NCBI RefSeq assembly: GCF_900176375.1
Contig: NZ_FWYF01000002.1
Coordinates: 408,161 to 472,160, forward strand
DNA length: 64,000 nt
Direction of reading: 5' to 3'
Origin: Reichenbachiella faecimaris
GTDB lineage: Bacteria > Bacteroidota > Bacteroidia > Cytophagales > Cyclobacteriaceae
The position numbers and the translations under genes are program-made. Shown in pieces: positions 16,315 through 57,486 of the stretch. Under the pieces are notes generated by a model. That model did not search any database. It had not been told where the DNA came from and saw only the letters and a list, made by a program, of their open reading frames with translations. The stretch's first letter is position 1, and the number at the start of each line of letters is the position of its first letter.

Positions 16315-17579
16315 TGCTCAAGGTATTGACCATGCGAAAAACGGAATTGTTCGATTTTTTATTTAAAACAGTAATTCTTCTTGCTGTTTATGATGGAATT
16401 CGTCACAATTCAATCTTCTACTCATTTAGTTTTGTAAAGGAGGTTGTCACATTGATTTTGTTTCTTGCAGTACTCAATTATAACGATTTTAAGATAGTAA
16501 ATCCATTTAAGAATTTTGCAGTAACGTCATTTACATTTTACATTTTGACAGTTGGCACTTTTCTAACAATTGGATATCTAAACTTAGTGCCTAATCCAAA
16601 ATTGAGTCCAATAGGAATGCATGTCAAGACAATTGAATTTTTTGTCATCGCATACTTATTTAATTTCTATGAGCAAATGACGAACAAAACCTATGAATCA
16701 TTGATCTCCTTTTTTGTCAATGTTTATGTGGTTTATATTTTATTTAACATTGCCTCATACTTTATACATTTCCCCTTCATTACCGAATTTAGACCATATA
16801 ACGGAAGAATCAGCAGTGGCTACCCAACTTCAGATAGTCAAAGTATGTTGTTTGCATTTATTTTGCTGGTTTTCACCGTAAATAGTTTGAAAAGATATAA
16901 AATAAAATTTTTGATCTTGTCATTAGGAATAGTTATTCAAGCAACTACAACTGGGGTGGCAACTTATGTATTTCTAACTTCTATATTAATCGTATTTGGC
17001 AATTACCTTGTGGGTAAAACTGGAACAAGAAAAAATATCATTTCGTGGTTATATATTTTAGCTACTGTGACATTTATACTACTTTTTTTAATAGCTTATA
17101 TTGATAAACAAACTCTAGACGCATTTTATGTTATGATAACTTCAAAAAGTGAGTTTATAATATACTATCTTAAACTGAAATTTTTTGGTGTTGAGTCTGA
17201 AATTGGCAATCAATTAGTTACTGGAACCTATATTGTAAGGGGTAATGCAGTTAAGGAGGCCATGTCTGCATATAATAGTTTTTTTGAACTACTTACAGGA
17301 AAGGGGGTCGCCTTGGCCATATTAGTTGAAAATCAATTTTCATTTATTATCAGAGCTTATGGATATTTGGGACTCTGTTTTTACATTTTATTTATTATCG
17401 GAATACTAGTAAAATCTCGAAAAAATGGCACTAAATTATTTTGGCACATGTCAATAATTGTATCCATTTTATTACTTACCAATGTTTCGCAGATTACAAC
17501 ATATCTCTACCAAATAGCTGTTTCCTTTGCGCTTGCTATGAATTACTGTCTCTCAAGGACGAAAACTATCGAAAACTGA
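16314..17579 (+). CDS. Wzy-like polysaccharide polymerase (O-antigen ligase/polymerase family)
   Basis: A 421-residue integral membrane protein with roughly 10-11 hydrophobic segments and a larger periplasmic loop in the second half (about residues 255-330), the layout of Wzy polymerases. No sharp sequence motif is present, as is usual for this family. Located between two glycosyltransferases in a locus with a single flippase, it is the best candidate polymerase. The ATG at 16314 overlaps the previous TGA and is taken as the start; another ATG lies 18 bases on. An alternative is an O-antigen ligase (WaaL), which has similar topology. Confidence 0.7.
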   Translation: MLKVLTMRKTELFDFLFKTVILLAVYDGIRHNSIFYSFSFVKEVVTLILFLAVLNYNDFKIVNPFKNFAVTSFTFYILTVGTFLTIGYLNLVPNPKLSPIGMHVKTIEFFVIAYLFNFYEQMTNKTYESLISFFVNVYVVYILFNIASYFIHFPFITEFRPYNGRISSGYPTSDSQSMLFAFILLVFTVNSLKRYKIKFLILSLGIVIQATTTGVATYVFLTSILIVFGNYLVGKTGTRKNIISWLYILATVTFILLFLIAYIDKQTLDAFYVMITSKSEFIIYYLKLKFFGVESEIGNQLVTGTYIVRGNAVKEAMSAYNSFFELLTGKGVALAILVENQFSFIIRAYGYLGLCFYILFIIGILVKSRKNGTKLFWHMSIIVSILLLTNVSQITTYLYQIAVSFALAMNYCLSRTKTIEN

Positions 17580-24425: not shown

Positions 24426-24619
24426 ATGAGCGAAATCATTTTAATAGTAGAGGAATCTCCTGAAGGAAGGCATGAAGCTCACAATCAGCACTTACTGATG
24501 GTGACAGCGTGGAAGAACAGAAAGAAAATATTAAGGAGGCCATTAAATGTCATTTTAAAAAAGACGTTCCTAAAGTGGTTAGATTACACATAATTCATGA
24601 AGAAATATTTGCAGCATGA
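24426..24619 (+). pseudogene. Frameshifted small HicB-like protein gene
   Basis: The ATG at 24426 opens a frame encoding MSEIILIVEESPEGRHEA, the start of a small (about 67 residue) HicB-like family often mislabelled 2-oxoisovalerate dehydrogenase. After about 18 residues the expected continuation appears in a different frame: TDGDSVEEQKENIKEAIK, then VPKVVRLHI and IHEEIFAA, with the stop at 24617-24619. From ATG to stop there are 194 bases, not a multiple of three. The join looks like a loss of about 10 bases relative to the family, estimated from memory of its usual sequence. No reading frame covers both halves, so it is probably dead. No HicA-like toxin gene is nearby. Confidence 0.65.
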
Positions 24620-24655
24620 AATTCTTTGTAATTTGTTTTTCTCAAATAATTTATC

Positions 24656-24784
24656 GAAAATTTCACTGTCTGAGCCCAATGATAATTGGGTGAGTTTTGA
24701 AATTTTCTAGCCTTTTTGCTTACTTTTTTGGCAATGAAAAAAGTAGGAGCCCGTCCGGCTTGAGGACATGCTGCCCAACATGGT
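24656..24784 (+). repeat. Multi-hairpin repeat, copy 1
   Basis: The unit has an outer stem GAAAATTTC (24656-24664) with GAAATTTTC (24699-24707), an inner stem CCCAAT (24675-24680) with ATTGGG (24685-24690), then a shared block CTAGCCTTTTTG and a hairpin TACTTTTTT (24721-24729) with AAAAAAGTA (24737-24745). A shorter AGCC/GGCT stem follows. Copy 2 at 56.26 kb has the same architecture with different stem bases. It lies about 40 bases upstream of asnB. No protein-coding frame explains it. Confidence 0.75.
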
Positions 24785-24825: not shown

Positions 24826-26700
24826 ATGTGCGGCATCACAGGCATACTGGCATTCAATGAAATTGGAAGAATTAATCTTGCCAATCTCGAAAAAGCAACA
24901 CACACCCTTGCTCATCGTGGACCAGACAATCAGGGGATATACTCCACACAGTCAGTAGGATTAGGACATCAGCGACTCTCTATCATTGATACCAGCTCAA
25001 ATGGTAATCAACCTTTTCAGATTTTAGATGGCAGATATGTTATCACCTTTAATGGTGAAATATTCAACTACCAGAAGCTAAGAAAAGAGCTCTTATCCAA
25101 AGGCATTCAATTCAAATCTGACTCTGACACAGAAGTTCTGTTGCATCTTTTTGCGCAGGAGGGCAAAGACTGCTTTAACAAACTAAACGGCTTTTTTGCC
25201 TTTGCTATTTACGACTCACTTGAAAATTCATTATTCATTGCAAGAGATCGGCTAGGAATCAAACCTCTCCTCTATTTTTATGACGATTCCAAATTTCTAT
25301 TTGGGTCAGAAATGAATGCCATGCTCTCTTATGATATTGAAAAGGAAATCGATCAAGAAGCCCTCAACTACTACCTGCAACTGAACTATACCCCATCTCC
25401 ACTGACCATGCTCAGAGGGGTGAAAAAATTAGAGCCTGGCCATTATATGACAGTACAAAATGGTCAGATAAGTAAACATCAATACTATGATGTCCCAAAT
25501 GACAACTTACAAACTTCACCTTTAAACTACCATTCAGCAAAGACTCAACTACAAAATCTTCTAGAAAAATCAGTCGAACGACGCATGATTGCAGACGTTC
25601 CTTTGGGGTGTTTTTTGAGTGGTGGTATTGACTCCAGTGTGATCACATCTGTGGCGTCAGGTCAAACCCAATCGTTAAAAACCTTCTCTATCGGGTTTGA
25701 AGAGAACCATTTTTTTGATGAAACACATTACGCCGAGTTAGTAGCTCAAAAATTCAAAACTGATCATACCACTTTCAAACTGACCAATGAGGAAATCACC
25801 AATCATCTAAGTAGCATTATAGACCATATAGATGAACCCTTTGCAGACTCGTCTGCCATACCTGTCTACTTGTTGAGCAAAAAAACACGTGAGCATGTCA
25901 CCGTGGCCCTTTCTGGAGATGGTGCAGACGAGATTTTTTCTGGATACAACAAACATTCTGCCTGGTGGAAAATGGAAAACAATTGGAAATTTAAAACCTT
26001 GATTTCATTAATTAACCCAGTAGCGCATTTCCTCCCCAAGTCTCGATCAGGTGCTTTGAGCAATGCGGCCAGACAAGTTGAAAGATTTGCAAACGCCATG
26101 AAAATGAATGCTACGGATCGTTATTGGTTTTTGGCCTCTTTCACCTCACAAACTCAGGTCAATCAATTGCTCAAACATCCATTAAATAACTATTCGCAAA
26201 GGAATTCTTGGATGGAACCAATGACTGACGTCAAAAGCATAAATGACCTCTTGAGACTGGATACAAAATTTGTTTTGCCCAATGACATGCTCAAAAAAGT
26301 GGATCTCATGTCCATGGCCAATAGTCTGGAGGTACGCGTACCATTTTTGGATCATGAGTTAGTAGATTTTGTGTTCAGCTTACCTGAGAGTATGAAACTC
26401 AATGGATCAATTCGAAAAAAGATATTGCAAGACACCTATCGCAGCATTCTTCCAGTAGAACTCTATAACCGACCAAAAAAAGGATTCGAAATTCCATTAC
26501 TTGATTGGTTGAAAACTTCATTAAGTGGTGAGCTAAATGAGCATCTATTCGACAAAGAAAAAATTATCAGTCAAGGACTTTTTAATTGGTCCGAAATTGA
26601 AAGATTGAAAAAACAGCTTTTCTCAAGAAATCCAGAAGACACTCATGCACGCGTCTGGGGACTGTATGTGTTTCAAAAATGGCATTCCAAGTATCTGTAG
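24826..26700 (+). CDS. asnB: Asparagine synthase (glutamine-hydrolysing)
   Basis: The 624-residue protein starts MCGITGIL, exposing the catalytic Cys2 of the class II glutamine amidotransferase domain after Met removal. The glutaminase half has AHRGPDNQG and FNGEIFNYQ; the synthetase half has the PP-loop SGGIDSS at about residue 265 and ALSGDGADEIFSGYNKH. It makes asparagine from aspartate, glutamine and ATP, or amidates a related acid. Bacteroidota often keep several AsnB paralogues near surface-polysaccharide loci, and this one lies 3.5 kb from such a locus, so it could amidate a sugar acid. Asparagine synthesis is the default reading. Confidence 0.9.
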   Translation: MCGITGILAFNEIGRINLANLEKATHTLAHRGPDNQGIYSTQSVGLGHQRLSIIDTSSNGNQPFQILDGRYVITFNGEIFNYQKLRKELLSKGIQFKSDSDTEVLLHLFAQEGKDCFNKLNGFFAFAIYDSLENSLFIARDRLGIKPLLYFYDDSKFLFGSEMNAMLSYDIEKEIDQEALNYYLQLNYTPSPLTMLRGVKKLEPGHYMTVQNGQISKHQYYDVPNDNLQTSPLNYHSAKTQLQNLLEKSVERRMIADVPLGCFLSGGIDSSVITSVASGQTQSLKTFSIGFEENHFFDETHYAELVAQKFKTDHTTFKLTNEEITNHLSSIIDHIDEPFADSSAIPVYLLSKKTREHVTVALSGDGADEIFSGYNKHSAWWKMENNWKFKTLISLINPVAHFLPKSRSGALSNAARQVERFANAMKMNATDRYWFLASFTSQTQVNQLLKHPLNNYSQRNSWMEPMTDVKSINDLLRLDTKFVLPNDMLKKVDLMSMANSLEVRVPFLDHELVDFVFSLPESMKLNGSIRKKILQDTYRSILPVELYNRPKKGFEIPLLDWLKTSLSGELNEHLFDKEKIISQGLFNWSEIERLKKQLFSRNPEDTHARVWGLYVFQKWHSKYL

Positions 26701-56259: not shown

Positions 56260-56387
56260 GAAAATTTTTCTGTCCGAGGACGACGGTGTCGTAGGAGTTT
56301 TAAAATTTTCTAGCCTTTTTGCTTACTTTTTTGGCAATGAAAAAAGTAAGGGCCAGCCTGGCCTGAAGGCAATGTTTGATATGACAT
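56260..56387 (+). repeat. Multi-hairpin repeat, copy 2
   Basis: Outer stem GAAAATTTT (56260-56268) with AAAATTTTC (56302-56310); inner stem ACGAC (56280-56284) with GTCGT (56288-56292); conserved CTAGCCTTTTTG; then a perfect 11-bp hairpin CTTACTTTTTT (56322-56332) with AAAAAAGTAAG (56340-56350); and a GGCCAG/CTGGCC stem. It matches copy 1 at 24.66 kb in layout and in loop and linker blocks. It sits about 40-80 bases before the gene at 56431. Confidence 0.75.
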
Positions 56388-56430: not shown

Positions 56431-57486
56431 ATGGATACTTACAAAAGATCTCTAGCCCACCAAACCTTCACCCCTCCCTCCGACTGGTTAAAAATCAAAA
56501 CCATAGATATGCACACAGGTGGGGAACCATTGAGAGTAATTCTAAGTGGACTACCCGAATTGAAAGGAAATAATGTACTAGAATACAGACGATTCATGAA
56601 AGAAAATCATGACCATCTTCGCACAGCACTCATGTATGAACCACGTGGTCATGCAGATATGTATGGGGGCATACTTGTTCCTCCAAATGACGATAGGGCA
56701 GATTTTGGCATTCTTTTTCTCCACAACGAAGGTTACAGTACCATGTGCGGTCATGCGACCATCGCCATAACCAAATTGGCTGTGGAAATGGGATGGGTGG
56801 AAAAAGTAGAACCCGTCACTAAAGTTGTTATTGACGCGCCATGTGGCCGACTTGAAAGCTTTGCTCGAATCAAAAACGGAGAAGTGGCATCTGTCTATTT
56901 TCATTGTGTGCCTTCTTTTGTAGTGGGGTTAAATTATGAAGTGGAAGTAGAAGAACTTGGGCTGATTCAGTACGACTTGGCCTACGGAGGAGCTTTTTAC
57001 GCCTACGTGGATGCTGACCAATATGGTATTAAAATGACCCCAGACAATTACCAACAATTGATAGGAAAAGGTACAGCCATCAAACAAGCAGTCATAAAAT
57101 CAAACGATCAAATCCATCATCCTTTTGAGCCAGACTTGAGTGAGCTCTATGGTACCATATTCACTGGAAAGTCTCACTCCAATCATATCGATTCTAGAAA
57201 TGTCTGCATCTTCGCTGCGGGAGAAGTAGATCGATCTCCTACAGGCTCTGGTGTGTCAGGTCGAATGGCCATTCATCATAAAAGAGGGGAGCTGAATGAT
57301 GGAGAATTTATGTCAATAGAAAGTATACTGGGTTCAGTTTTTATGGGTTCGGTTTACAAAGAAGAACAATATGGCTCCTTTGATGCTGTCATTCCCCAGG
57401 TGGAAGGCACAGCTCATATCACAGGACAAAATGAATTCCTGATAGACCCAAAAGATTCATTTAAAGAAGGTTTTCTTTTGAGGTGA
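56431..57486 (+). CDS. trans-3-hydroxy-L-proline dehydratase (proline racemase family)
   Basis: The 351-residue paralogue of the upstream epimerase has the first cysteine (Cys106 in TMCGHATIAI), but the second is threonine (Thr271 in DRSPTGSGVSG). In this superfamily the Cys/Thr combination marks trans-3-hydroxy-L-proline dehydratases, which make 1-pyrroline-2-carboxylate. The reductase at 53012 would then give L-proline. The ATG at 56431 is chosen; a TTG six bases upstream is in frame. The stop is only 5 bases from the opposing ATPase gene. Confidence 0.88.
   Translation: MDTYKRSLAHQTFTPPSDWLKIKTIDMHTGGEPLRVILSGLPELKGNNVLEYRRFMKENHDHLRTALMYEPRGHADMYGGILVPPNDDRADFGILFLHNEGYSTMCGHATIAITKLAVEMGWVEKVEPVTKVVIDAPCGRLESFARIKNGEVASVYFHCVPSFVVGLNYEVEVEELGLIQYDLAYGGAFYAYVDADQYGIKMTPDNYQQLIGKGTAIKQAVIKSNDQIHHPFEPDLSELYGTIFTGKSHSNHIDSRNVCIFAAGEVDRSPTGSGVSGRMAIHHKRGELNDGEFMSIESILGSVFMGSVYKEEQYGSFDAVIPQVEGTAHITGQNEFLIDPKDSFKEGFLLR

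Follow-up and report, generated by a model that had tools for sequence, protein, structure and literature searches.

A repeat-borne module with a predicted triple-helical pseudoknot in Reichenbachiella faecimaris and other Bacteroidota

A 64,000-nucleotide stretch of the Reichenbachiella faecimaris genome (assembly GCF_900176375.1, contig NZ_FWYF01000002.1, positions 408,161 to 472,160; hereafter the window) carries two copies of a short intergenic element whose stems differ in letters, and this raises the question of which folded structure is being kept and what it may do. The initial annotation had described a two-copy repeat with covarying stems on the plus strand. Both copies were present there, at 24656-24767 and 56260-56370, and the structured part stops near 24767 and 56370 and not at 24784 and 56387, as annotated earlier. 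The stretch common to both copies has 88% identity over 77 nucleotides, and a 22-nucleotide probe of it gave 2 matches (≤3 mismatches) compared with 0.00 expected in shuffled sequences. Each copy consists, from 5' to 3', of a closing stem (H1), the linker TAGCC, the pyrimidine loop TTTTTG (L1), a hairpin (H2; CTTACTTTTTT-GGCAATG-AAAAAAGTARG) and a tail of 20 nucleotides. Two further pairings that were absent from the initial annotation were found, namely a helix between the linker and the hairpin loop (S1, pseudoknot 1) and a pseudoknot in the tail (pseudoknot 2). The features of the two copies are as follows.

24656-24707, plus strand: copy 1 H1, variable closing stem GAAAATTTC (24656-24664)/GAAATTTTC (24699-24707); from sequence, fold and an alignment of 24 copies
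24675-24680/24685-24690, plus strand: copy 1 H1 inner stem CCCAAT/ATTGGG, with conserved inner blocks CTGTCTGAG/GAGTTTT
24708-24718, plus strand: copy 1 linker TAGCC (5' strand of S1, GCC, 24710-24712) and L1 TTTTTG (24713-24718), the proposed third strand; from covariation, triplex code and length rule
24719-24747, plus strand: copy 1 H2, CTTACTTTTTT (24719-24729)/AAAAAAGTAGG (24737-24747), loop GGCAATG (24730-24736); 66.4 bits
24710-24742, plus strand: copy 1 predicted pseudoknot 1, loop GGC with linker GCC, A24738-A24742 opposite T24713-T24717
24748-24767, plus strand: copy 1 predicted tail pseudoknot 2, AGCC (24748-24751)/GGCT (24757-24760) and GTCC (24753-24756)/GGAC (24764-24767)
56260-56310, plus strand: copy 2 H1, GAAAATTTT (56260-56268)/AAAATTTTC (56302-56310), inner stem ACGAC (56280-56284)/GTCGT (56288-56292); from sequence and fold
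56311-56321, plus strand: copy 2 linker TAGCC and L1 TTTTTG; from sequence and covariation
56322-56350, plus strand: copy 2 H2, CTTACTTTTTT/AAAAAAGTAAG, loop GGCAATG (predicted pseudoknot 1); 69.5 bits
56351-56370, plus strand: copy 2 predicted tail pseudoknot 2, GGCC/GGCC and GCCT/AGGC

The claim that stem letters change while pairing is kept was confirmed. The H1 outer stem has 9 of 9 pairs in both copies, including one double change from C-G to T-A, the inner stems have unrelated letters and are each fully paired, and the tail pseudoknot differs between the copies by three compensatory double changes. The strand was left undecided by simple folding, because z-scores on the minus strand (-3.2 and -3.1 for copies 1 and 2) were comparable to those on the plus strand (-3.5 and -2.5), as calculated with tools whose scope does not include pseudoknots.

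Pseudoknots and candidate triple helix

A search pattern that left the pairing columns free yielded 121 matches, representing 61 distinct cores of 40 nucleotides, and mutual information was calculated over all column pairs. The highest value of all was obtained for linker base 5 and loop base 1, with the pairs of the hairpin ranking below it; 54 of the 61 cores pair at this position (C-G in 29, T-A in 20, A-T in 4, and G-C in 1). Linker base 4 and loop base 2 ranked fifth, with 46 of 61 paired and 14 showing A.G. When the structure including S1 was imposed on 58 distinct 41-nucleotide cores, 97.3% of the cells were paired and the covariation score was 0.360, compared with 0.090 in shuffles (none of 500 reached the observed value) and at most 0.051 for slid structures; the share of H2 in this count is biased because its pairing served in selection, and that of S1 was not so selected. 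The predicted H-type pseudoknot formed by the linker GCC and the hairpin-loop GGC is well supported by these data.

Among 127 distinct tails, 40 had at least three of four complementary bases in the first helix at a spacing of 5 nucleotides. The second helix in those 40 tails was paired in 116 of 160 cells, compared with a mean of 76 and a maximum of 92 in 5000 shuffles, and its types include GTCC/GGAC, GTCT/AGAC, GCCT/AGGC, CACC/GGTG, CCAC/GTGG, and CGCT/AGCG. A further 18 tails fit a spacing of 4 nucleotides and 69 fit neither; in a few of the latter the motif is shifted in register (L078, L008, and SJ85 variants), and most appear unpaired by eye, which suggests that the tail pseudoknot is optional. 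The second pseudoknot, as predicted from pairing, is thus well supported in many copies. The earlier proposal of selection on a folded RNA or DNA gains support from the covariation across the 61 distinct cores and from the tail pairing; many copies exist, and compensatory changes are present in them.

H-type pseudoknots of this kind place loop 1 across the deep groove of H2, where it runs parallel to the purine strand. Should L1 act as the third strand, T on A and C on G would be expected, with a loop length that tracks the purine tract. A total of 112 distinct modules were parsed by hairpin, loop motif, and S1; the 75 with a full S1 were counted and those below 3/3 (26, 8, and 3) were left out; the loop motif and full S1 filters reduce chance hairpins. 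At the inner loop positions of these 75 modules, T/A occurred 303 times and C/G 4 times against the bases of the purine strand, with no other combination (Fisher's test, 2.8e-9, to which positions of one module and modules related to each other do not contribute independently). The four C/G cases were located at different places in four genomes, and comprised TCTTTG on AGAAAG in L319 (the same in L255 and L320), TTCTTTG on AAGAAAG in L078 (Ekhidna lutea), CTCTTTG on CAGAAAG in L262, and TTTTCTTTG on AAAAGAAAT in L055.

Furthermore, the length of the third strand follows that of the purine tract across the range of 4 to 8. Equality was found in 66 of 75 modules by the rule of the script, and eight of the nine flagged modules reflect run-on into a second A-run low in the stem. 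By the length of the first run, L055 and L258 differ; the tract of L055 is interrupted by its G and scores 8/8 by the script's rule, so that lengths are equal in 74 of 75. In a set collected once the rule had been formulated, the length rule was kept in 22 of 23 distinct new modules (18 of 19 with a full S1), and the inner positions of the 19 modules with a full S1 showed T/A 78 times. These results suggest an H-type pseudoknot with a pyrimidine.purine-pyrimidine major-groove triplex, a prediction that is well supported at the level of sequence.

Insertions into the module were also observed, with extra hairpins located within the pyrimidine loop in L345 and within the H2 loop or stem in L037, L003, L276, and L358. 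Four loci (L347, L348, L359, and L360) formed a deviant group with the linker CGGGGT and the loop ACCTG, in which the register of the first helix is ambiguous.

Copy number, carriers and genomic placement

The element is not a two-copy repeat. A covariance scan gave 10 matches in the window at E values up to 10, of which only the two copies fell below E 0.01; the next two were their minus-strand shadows and the others had E≥0.8. The source genome contained three places by a 120-nucleotide query and four by a covariance model of the 41-nucleotide core (R1), and R. agariperforans gave 19 model matches. The fourth (G000:C7:170171, L283) has a different, second H1 type, CCGAGGGTGCGG, which also occurs in other genera (L072, L101, and L176); at least two H1 classes therefore precede the same module. 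The blastn search detected matches in 20 of 59 genomes. A search with R1, along the lines of the check put forward originally, was positive in 50 of 98 genomes at E≤0.01, and 27 of 247 genomes drawn across the phylum were positive at E≤0.001, the source being included in all three counts; both R1 searches used strict filters by which weak matches are lost, and a few weak matches in the 247-genome set look like chance by eye (L373 and L376). A pattern leaving the pairing columns free found at least 117 stretches in GTDB genomes. Among the 80 named matches listed, 74 belonged to Bacteroidota and 3 to Glaciecola (Gammaproteobacteria), 1 was unlabelled, and one record each was labelled Rickettsiales and Thermodesulfobacteriota. 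The H1 end of the Glaciecola amylolytica copies (L064, L110, and L114) resembles by eye that of L118 and L132 (Flavobacteriales, Fluviicola), which suggests horizontal transfer. Phage carriage was rejected, with 0 matches to one exact pattern in IMG/VR viral contigs.

Several lineages revealed carriers with features of miniature inverted-repeat transposable elements (MITEs), being short, non-coding, multicopy, and bounded by terminal inverted repeats (TIRs); these occur in Saprospiraceae SJ85, in Reichenbachiella (G006 and G007), and in G088. In SJ85, the module lies within elements of 387-430 base pairs with TIRs GTGTGTATAACAAATTGCAC, and perfect 9-base-pair direct repeats flank three of the five copies with both ends readable (L066, L151, and L159, not L067 and L154). 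R. agariperforans (G007) and R. versicolor (G006) carry TIRs CCTGAGTTCGATT about 100-240 base pairs apart, with some pairs lacking the module, and G088 carries TIRs GAGTATCCGGATCNTTGCA. In these carrier lineages the module is internal and constant and the ends differ between lineages. Judged from these arrangements, MITE-like DNA elements carry, or once carried, the element as cargo in several lineages. No TIRs were visible by eye around either window copy, and neither an autonomous partner nor TIR pairs spaced for a transposase gene were seen by eye in 20 regions or in the SJ85 and G088 match lists.

The genes downstream of the window copies are as follows.

24826-26700, plus strand: asnB, downstream of copy 1 (Pfam Asn_synthase)
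56431-57486, plus strand: proline racemase family gene, downstream of copy 2 (Pfam Pro_racemase)

The second gene had been called a dehydratase at first and belongs to the Pro_racemase family. Both copies lie about 60 nucleotides before a start codon, in agreement with the distance of 40-80 bases reported earlier; the implied rule of placement before particular start codons did not hold. An all-against-all comparison of open reading frames (ORFs) in 117 loci produced seven clusters of 4 to 6 loci; three consist of translations of the element itself, and the remaining four look by eye like ABC, signalling, and outer-membrane proteins. No ORF cluster occurred in more than 6 of the 117 loci, the element has no recurrent gene family beside it, and a linked gene or transposase was rejected by this comparison. 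With respect to a TnpB/IscB guide RNA (omega RNA), no such nuclease was noticed by eye among the seven clusters, for which no nuclease profile search was made.

Only two of the eight Reichenbachiella genomes have the element before asnB by reading, the second being G005 (L037/L231), and the other six have no copy within 330 bases before the gene. R1 alone finds the asnB copy in one of the eight because the G005 copy contains inserted hairpins. The asnB copies of the two species (L001 and L037) have wholly different inner stems, both paired. L003 and L024 also have flanks in common.

For orientation, places with the same outer flanks were merged, which reduced 222 to 194; an additional place falls within a long ORF. 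At tandem sites between genes, 45 places were sense and 19 antisense (p 0.0016), with 41 convergent and 31 divergent sites; the ratio before merging, duplicates included, was 49:19. Replication strand could be partly behind the sense bias.

Proposed role and alternative explanations

On balance, we lean towards a triplex-locked double-knot module that acts as an RNA roadblock on transcripts and is carried by small mobile repeats. The acting form would be RNA, made when transcription of neighbouring genes reads through the element. Locked by its triplex, the knot would be a rigid obstacle, in the simplest case to 3' exonucleases, by which the transcript carrying it may be stabilised or punctuated. 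RNA is favoured because of the sense bias and because the internal module is constant in carriers with different ends. The telomerase RNA pseudoknot and the MALAT1 and ENE triple helices have a U-rich third strand on an A-U tract. The roadblock is proposed because RNA protection from decay is the role stated for such triplexes outside riboswitches, in passages on MALAT1 (PMC11411715) and ENE (PMC12501189); the latter also describes a plant retrotransposon ENE that protects transposable-element RNA. In contrast to the element, whose tract lies inside one hairpin, these systems are eukaryotic, and the ENE of that account (PMC12501189) clamps a poly(A) tail. By analogy, a phylum-wide bacterial counterpart of ENE/MALAT1-type protection may be envisaged, and is rather doubtful; small mobile repeats would bring a self-contained double pseudoknot with a triplex lock into transcripts, and every insertion would equip a further gene with a transferable site of RNA stability or processing. 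Mobile repeats would here be spreading a riboswitch-type fold whose triplex changes in length and letters according to a legible rule. The natural variants could serve for the study of triplex stability, the element would be a candidate RNA family that Rfam 15 lacks, and it would allow one to ask if RNA modules under selection are carried by bacterial MITEs and remodel transcripts.

Several observations weigh against the proposed RNA triplex. The covariation tests throughout treat related sequences as independent, and most cores came from a pattern fixing T5G and CT6/A6G, so that invariance there arises by construction. An A.G mismatch in S1 (GAC/GGC) accounts for 13 of the 26 modules having two of three pairs. 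L258 is the one true length exception among the 75 modules, and one module in L371 also breaks the length rule. The first loop position is looser (T/A 76, T/C 8, C/C 6, C/G 4, and T/G 1 in all full-S1 modules), with C opposite C besides G and T opposite G once. The parser accepts only loops closed by a single G and leaves out GG-ending loops; by eye, those of L311, L322, L354, and L370 have a pyrimidine run one short, with G opposite A. The orientation counts rest on simple ORF calls, and before merging the bias reached significance in the relatives (30 vs. 9), and that of the database set by itself did not (19 vs. 10, p 0.14). Folding on the plus and minus strands alike was better than in shuffles. 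The same letter code holds for DNA triplexes, and a single-stranded DNA form therefore retains some probability.

Such a DNA form, a hairpin recognised by a transposase or recombinase in mobilisation with no RNA role, is considered unlikely. It would agree with the TIRs in three lineages, with the shared letter code, and with a minus strand that folds as well as the plus strand. However, the module is internal in the TIR lineages and remains constant while the ends vary, and the sense bias in tandem sites would not be expected. The source genome and 20 element-bearing genomes were searched for PF01797 (IS200-like), which gave 41 matches; among the 32 examined as loci none had a full module alongside, and 5 of the 20 element-bearing genomes had no match, with PF01797 present in the other 15. 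An origin from repetitive extragenic palindromic (REP) sequences and their REP-associated tyrosine transposases (RAYTs) was rejected on the same loci. The element resembles the GTAG/CGTC REPs, as characterized in PMC3733652, in being short, palindromic, and intergenic, and differs in that inspection of its ends by eye showed no GTAG/CGTC tag and that no RAYT is adjacent in these loci. In G064, an edge fragment of a possible module (L215, 1-26, E 0.051) and an IS200-like gene are separated by about 1.5 kb; the fragment is too short to judge.

The structure could also be decayed, hitch-hiking MITE filler left from palindromic ends with no present function, which appears improbable. Palindromy would not be expected to produce covariation at pseudoknot and triplex positions among copies whose ends are unrelated, and the asnB copies L001 and L037 have wholly different inner stems that are both paired. 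The uneven occurrence at asnB (2 of 8 genomes) and the somewhat higher number of convergent than divergent sites (41 vs. 31) would suit such filler. A convergent excess has been read as tolerance for parasites by the authors of the pneumococcal study (PMC3049150), in which BOX and RUP are presented as small structured interspersed intergenic repeats enriched between convergent genes, with BOX copies shown to be transcribed. The element is likewise small, interspersed, structured, and intergenic, with more convergent sites; BOX and RUP are described as stem-loops of streptococci only, and the passages on them do not mention a pseudoknot or triplex (PMC3049150).

A metabolite riboswitch or gene-specific 5' regulator of the SAM-II/SAM-V type shares the fold type and would suit the window copies about 60 nucleotides before start codons; it is very improbable, given the lack of a common neighbour gene family, the many copies per genome near gene ends as well as starts, and the lack of Rfam matches at E≤1 across 16 loci. 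To our knowledge, bacterial triplex pseudoknots are all riboswitches tied to particular pathways. SAM-II and SAM-V, the latter found in marine alpha-proteobacteria and Bacteroidetes, are also triplex pseudoknots according to the relevant text of PMC6061858. In contrast to them, the element has no fixed gene context, occurs in many copies per genome, varies in triplex length, carries an extra stem and a second pseudoknot, and has no Rfam match. Equally remote is a mobile-element RNA domain for self-copying through RNA, as in a bacterial retroelement resembling short interspersed elements: a constant RNA-like module, dispersed copies, and variable outer parts would be expected of it, but the TIRs and 9-base-pair target duplications of SJ85 (three of five copies) point to DNA transposition there, and the ORF clusters include no common reverse transcriptase neighbour.

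No Rfam 15 family covers the element. Only tRNA was matched in the window and none of the 16 loci gave a match at E≤1; six further sources at E≤10 gave six sub-threshold matches, all in L268, one of which overlaps the element (17336-17421, snosnR66, opposite strand, E 8.5). No description of the element was found in the open-access literature searched, and the terms Bacteroid, pseudoknot, and triple helix are all absent from a review of prokaryotic MITEs (PMC10969869).

Atypical loci

Eight strong core matches fell within the 40-kb region G108:C1 1128001-1168000 (L268 and L269). All six of those in L268 (11223-17377) were on one strand, and ORFs of the cluster were read by eye as sugar-nucleotide and NusG-like genes; this same-direction cluster raises the possibility of an integron-like (attC) or recombination role. 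Deviant copies in G057 (L059 and L060) were located beside ankyrin-repeat-like genes in a 1.1-Mb genome that resembles an Amoebophilus-type symbiont by eye. In the window, a HicB-like small protein gene with a frame break, read by eye only, was located at 24426-24621, between pheS (Pfam) and copy 1.
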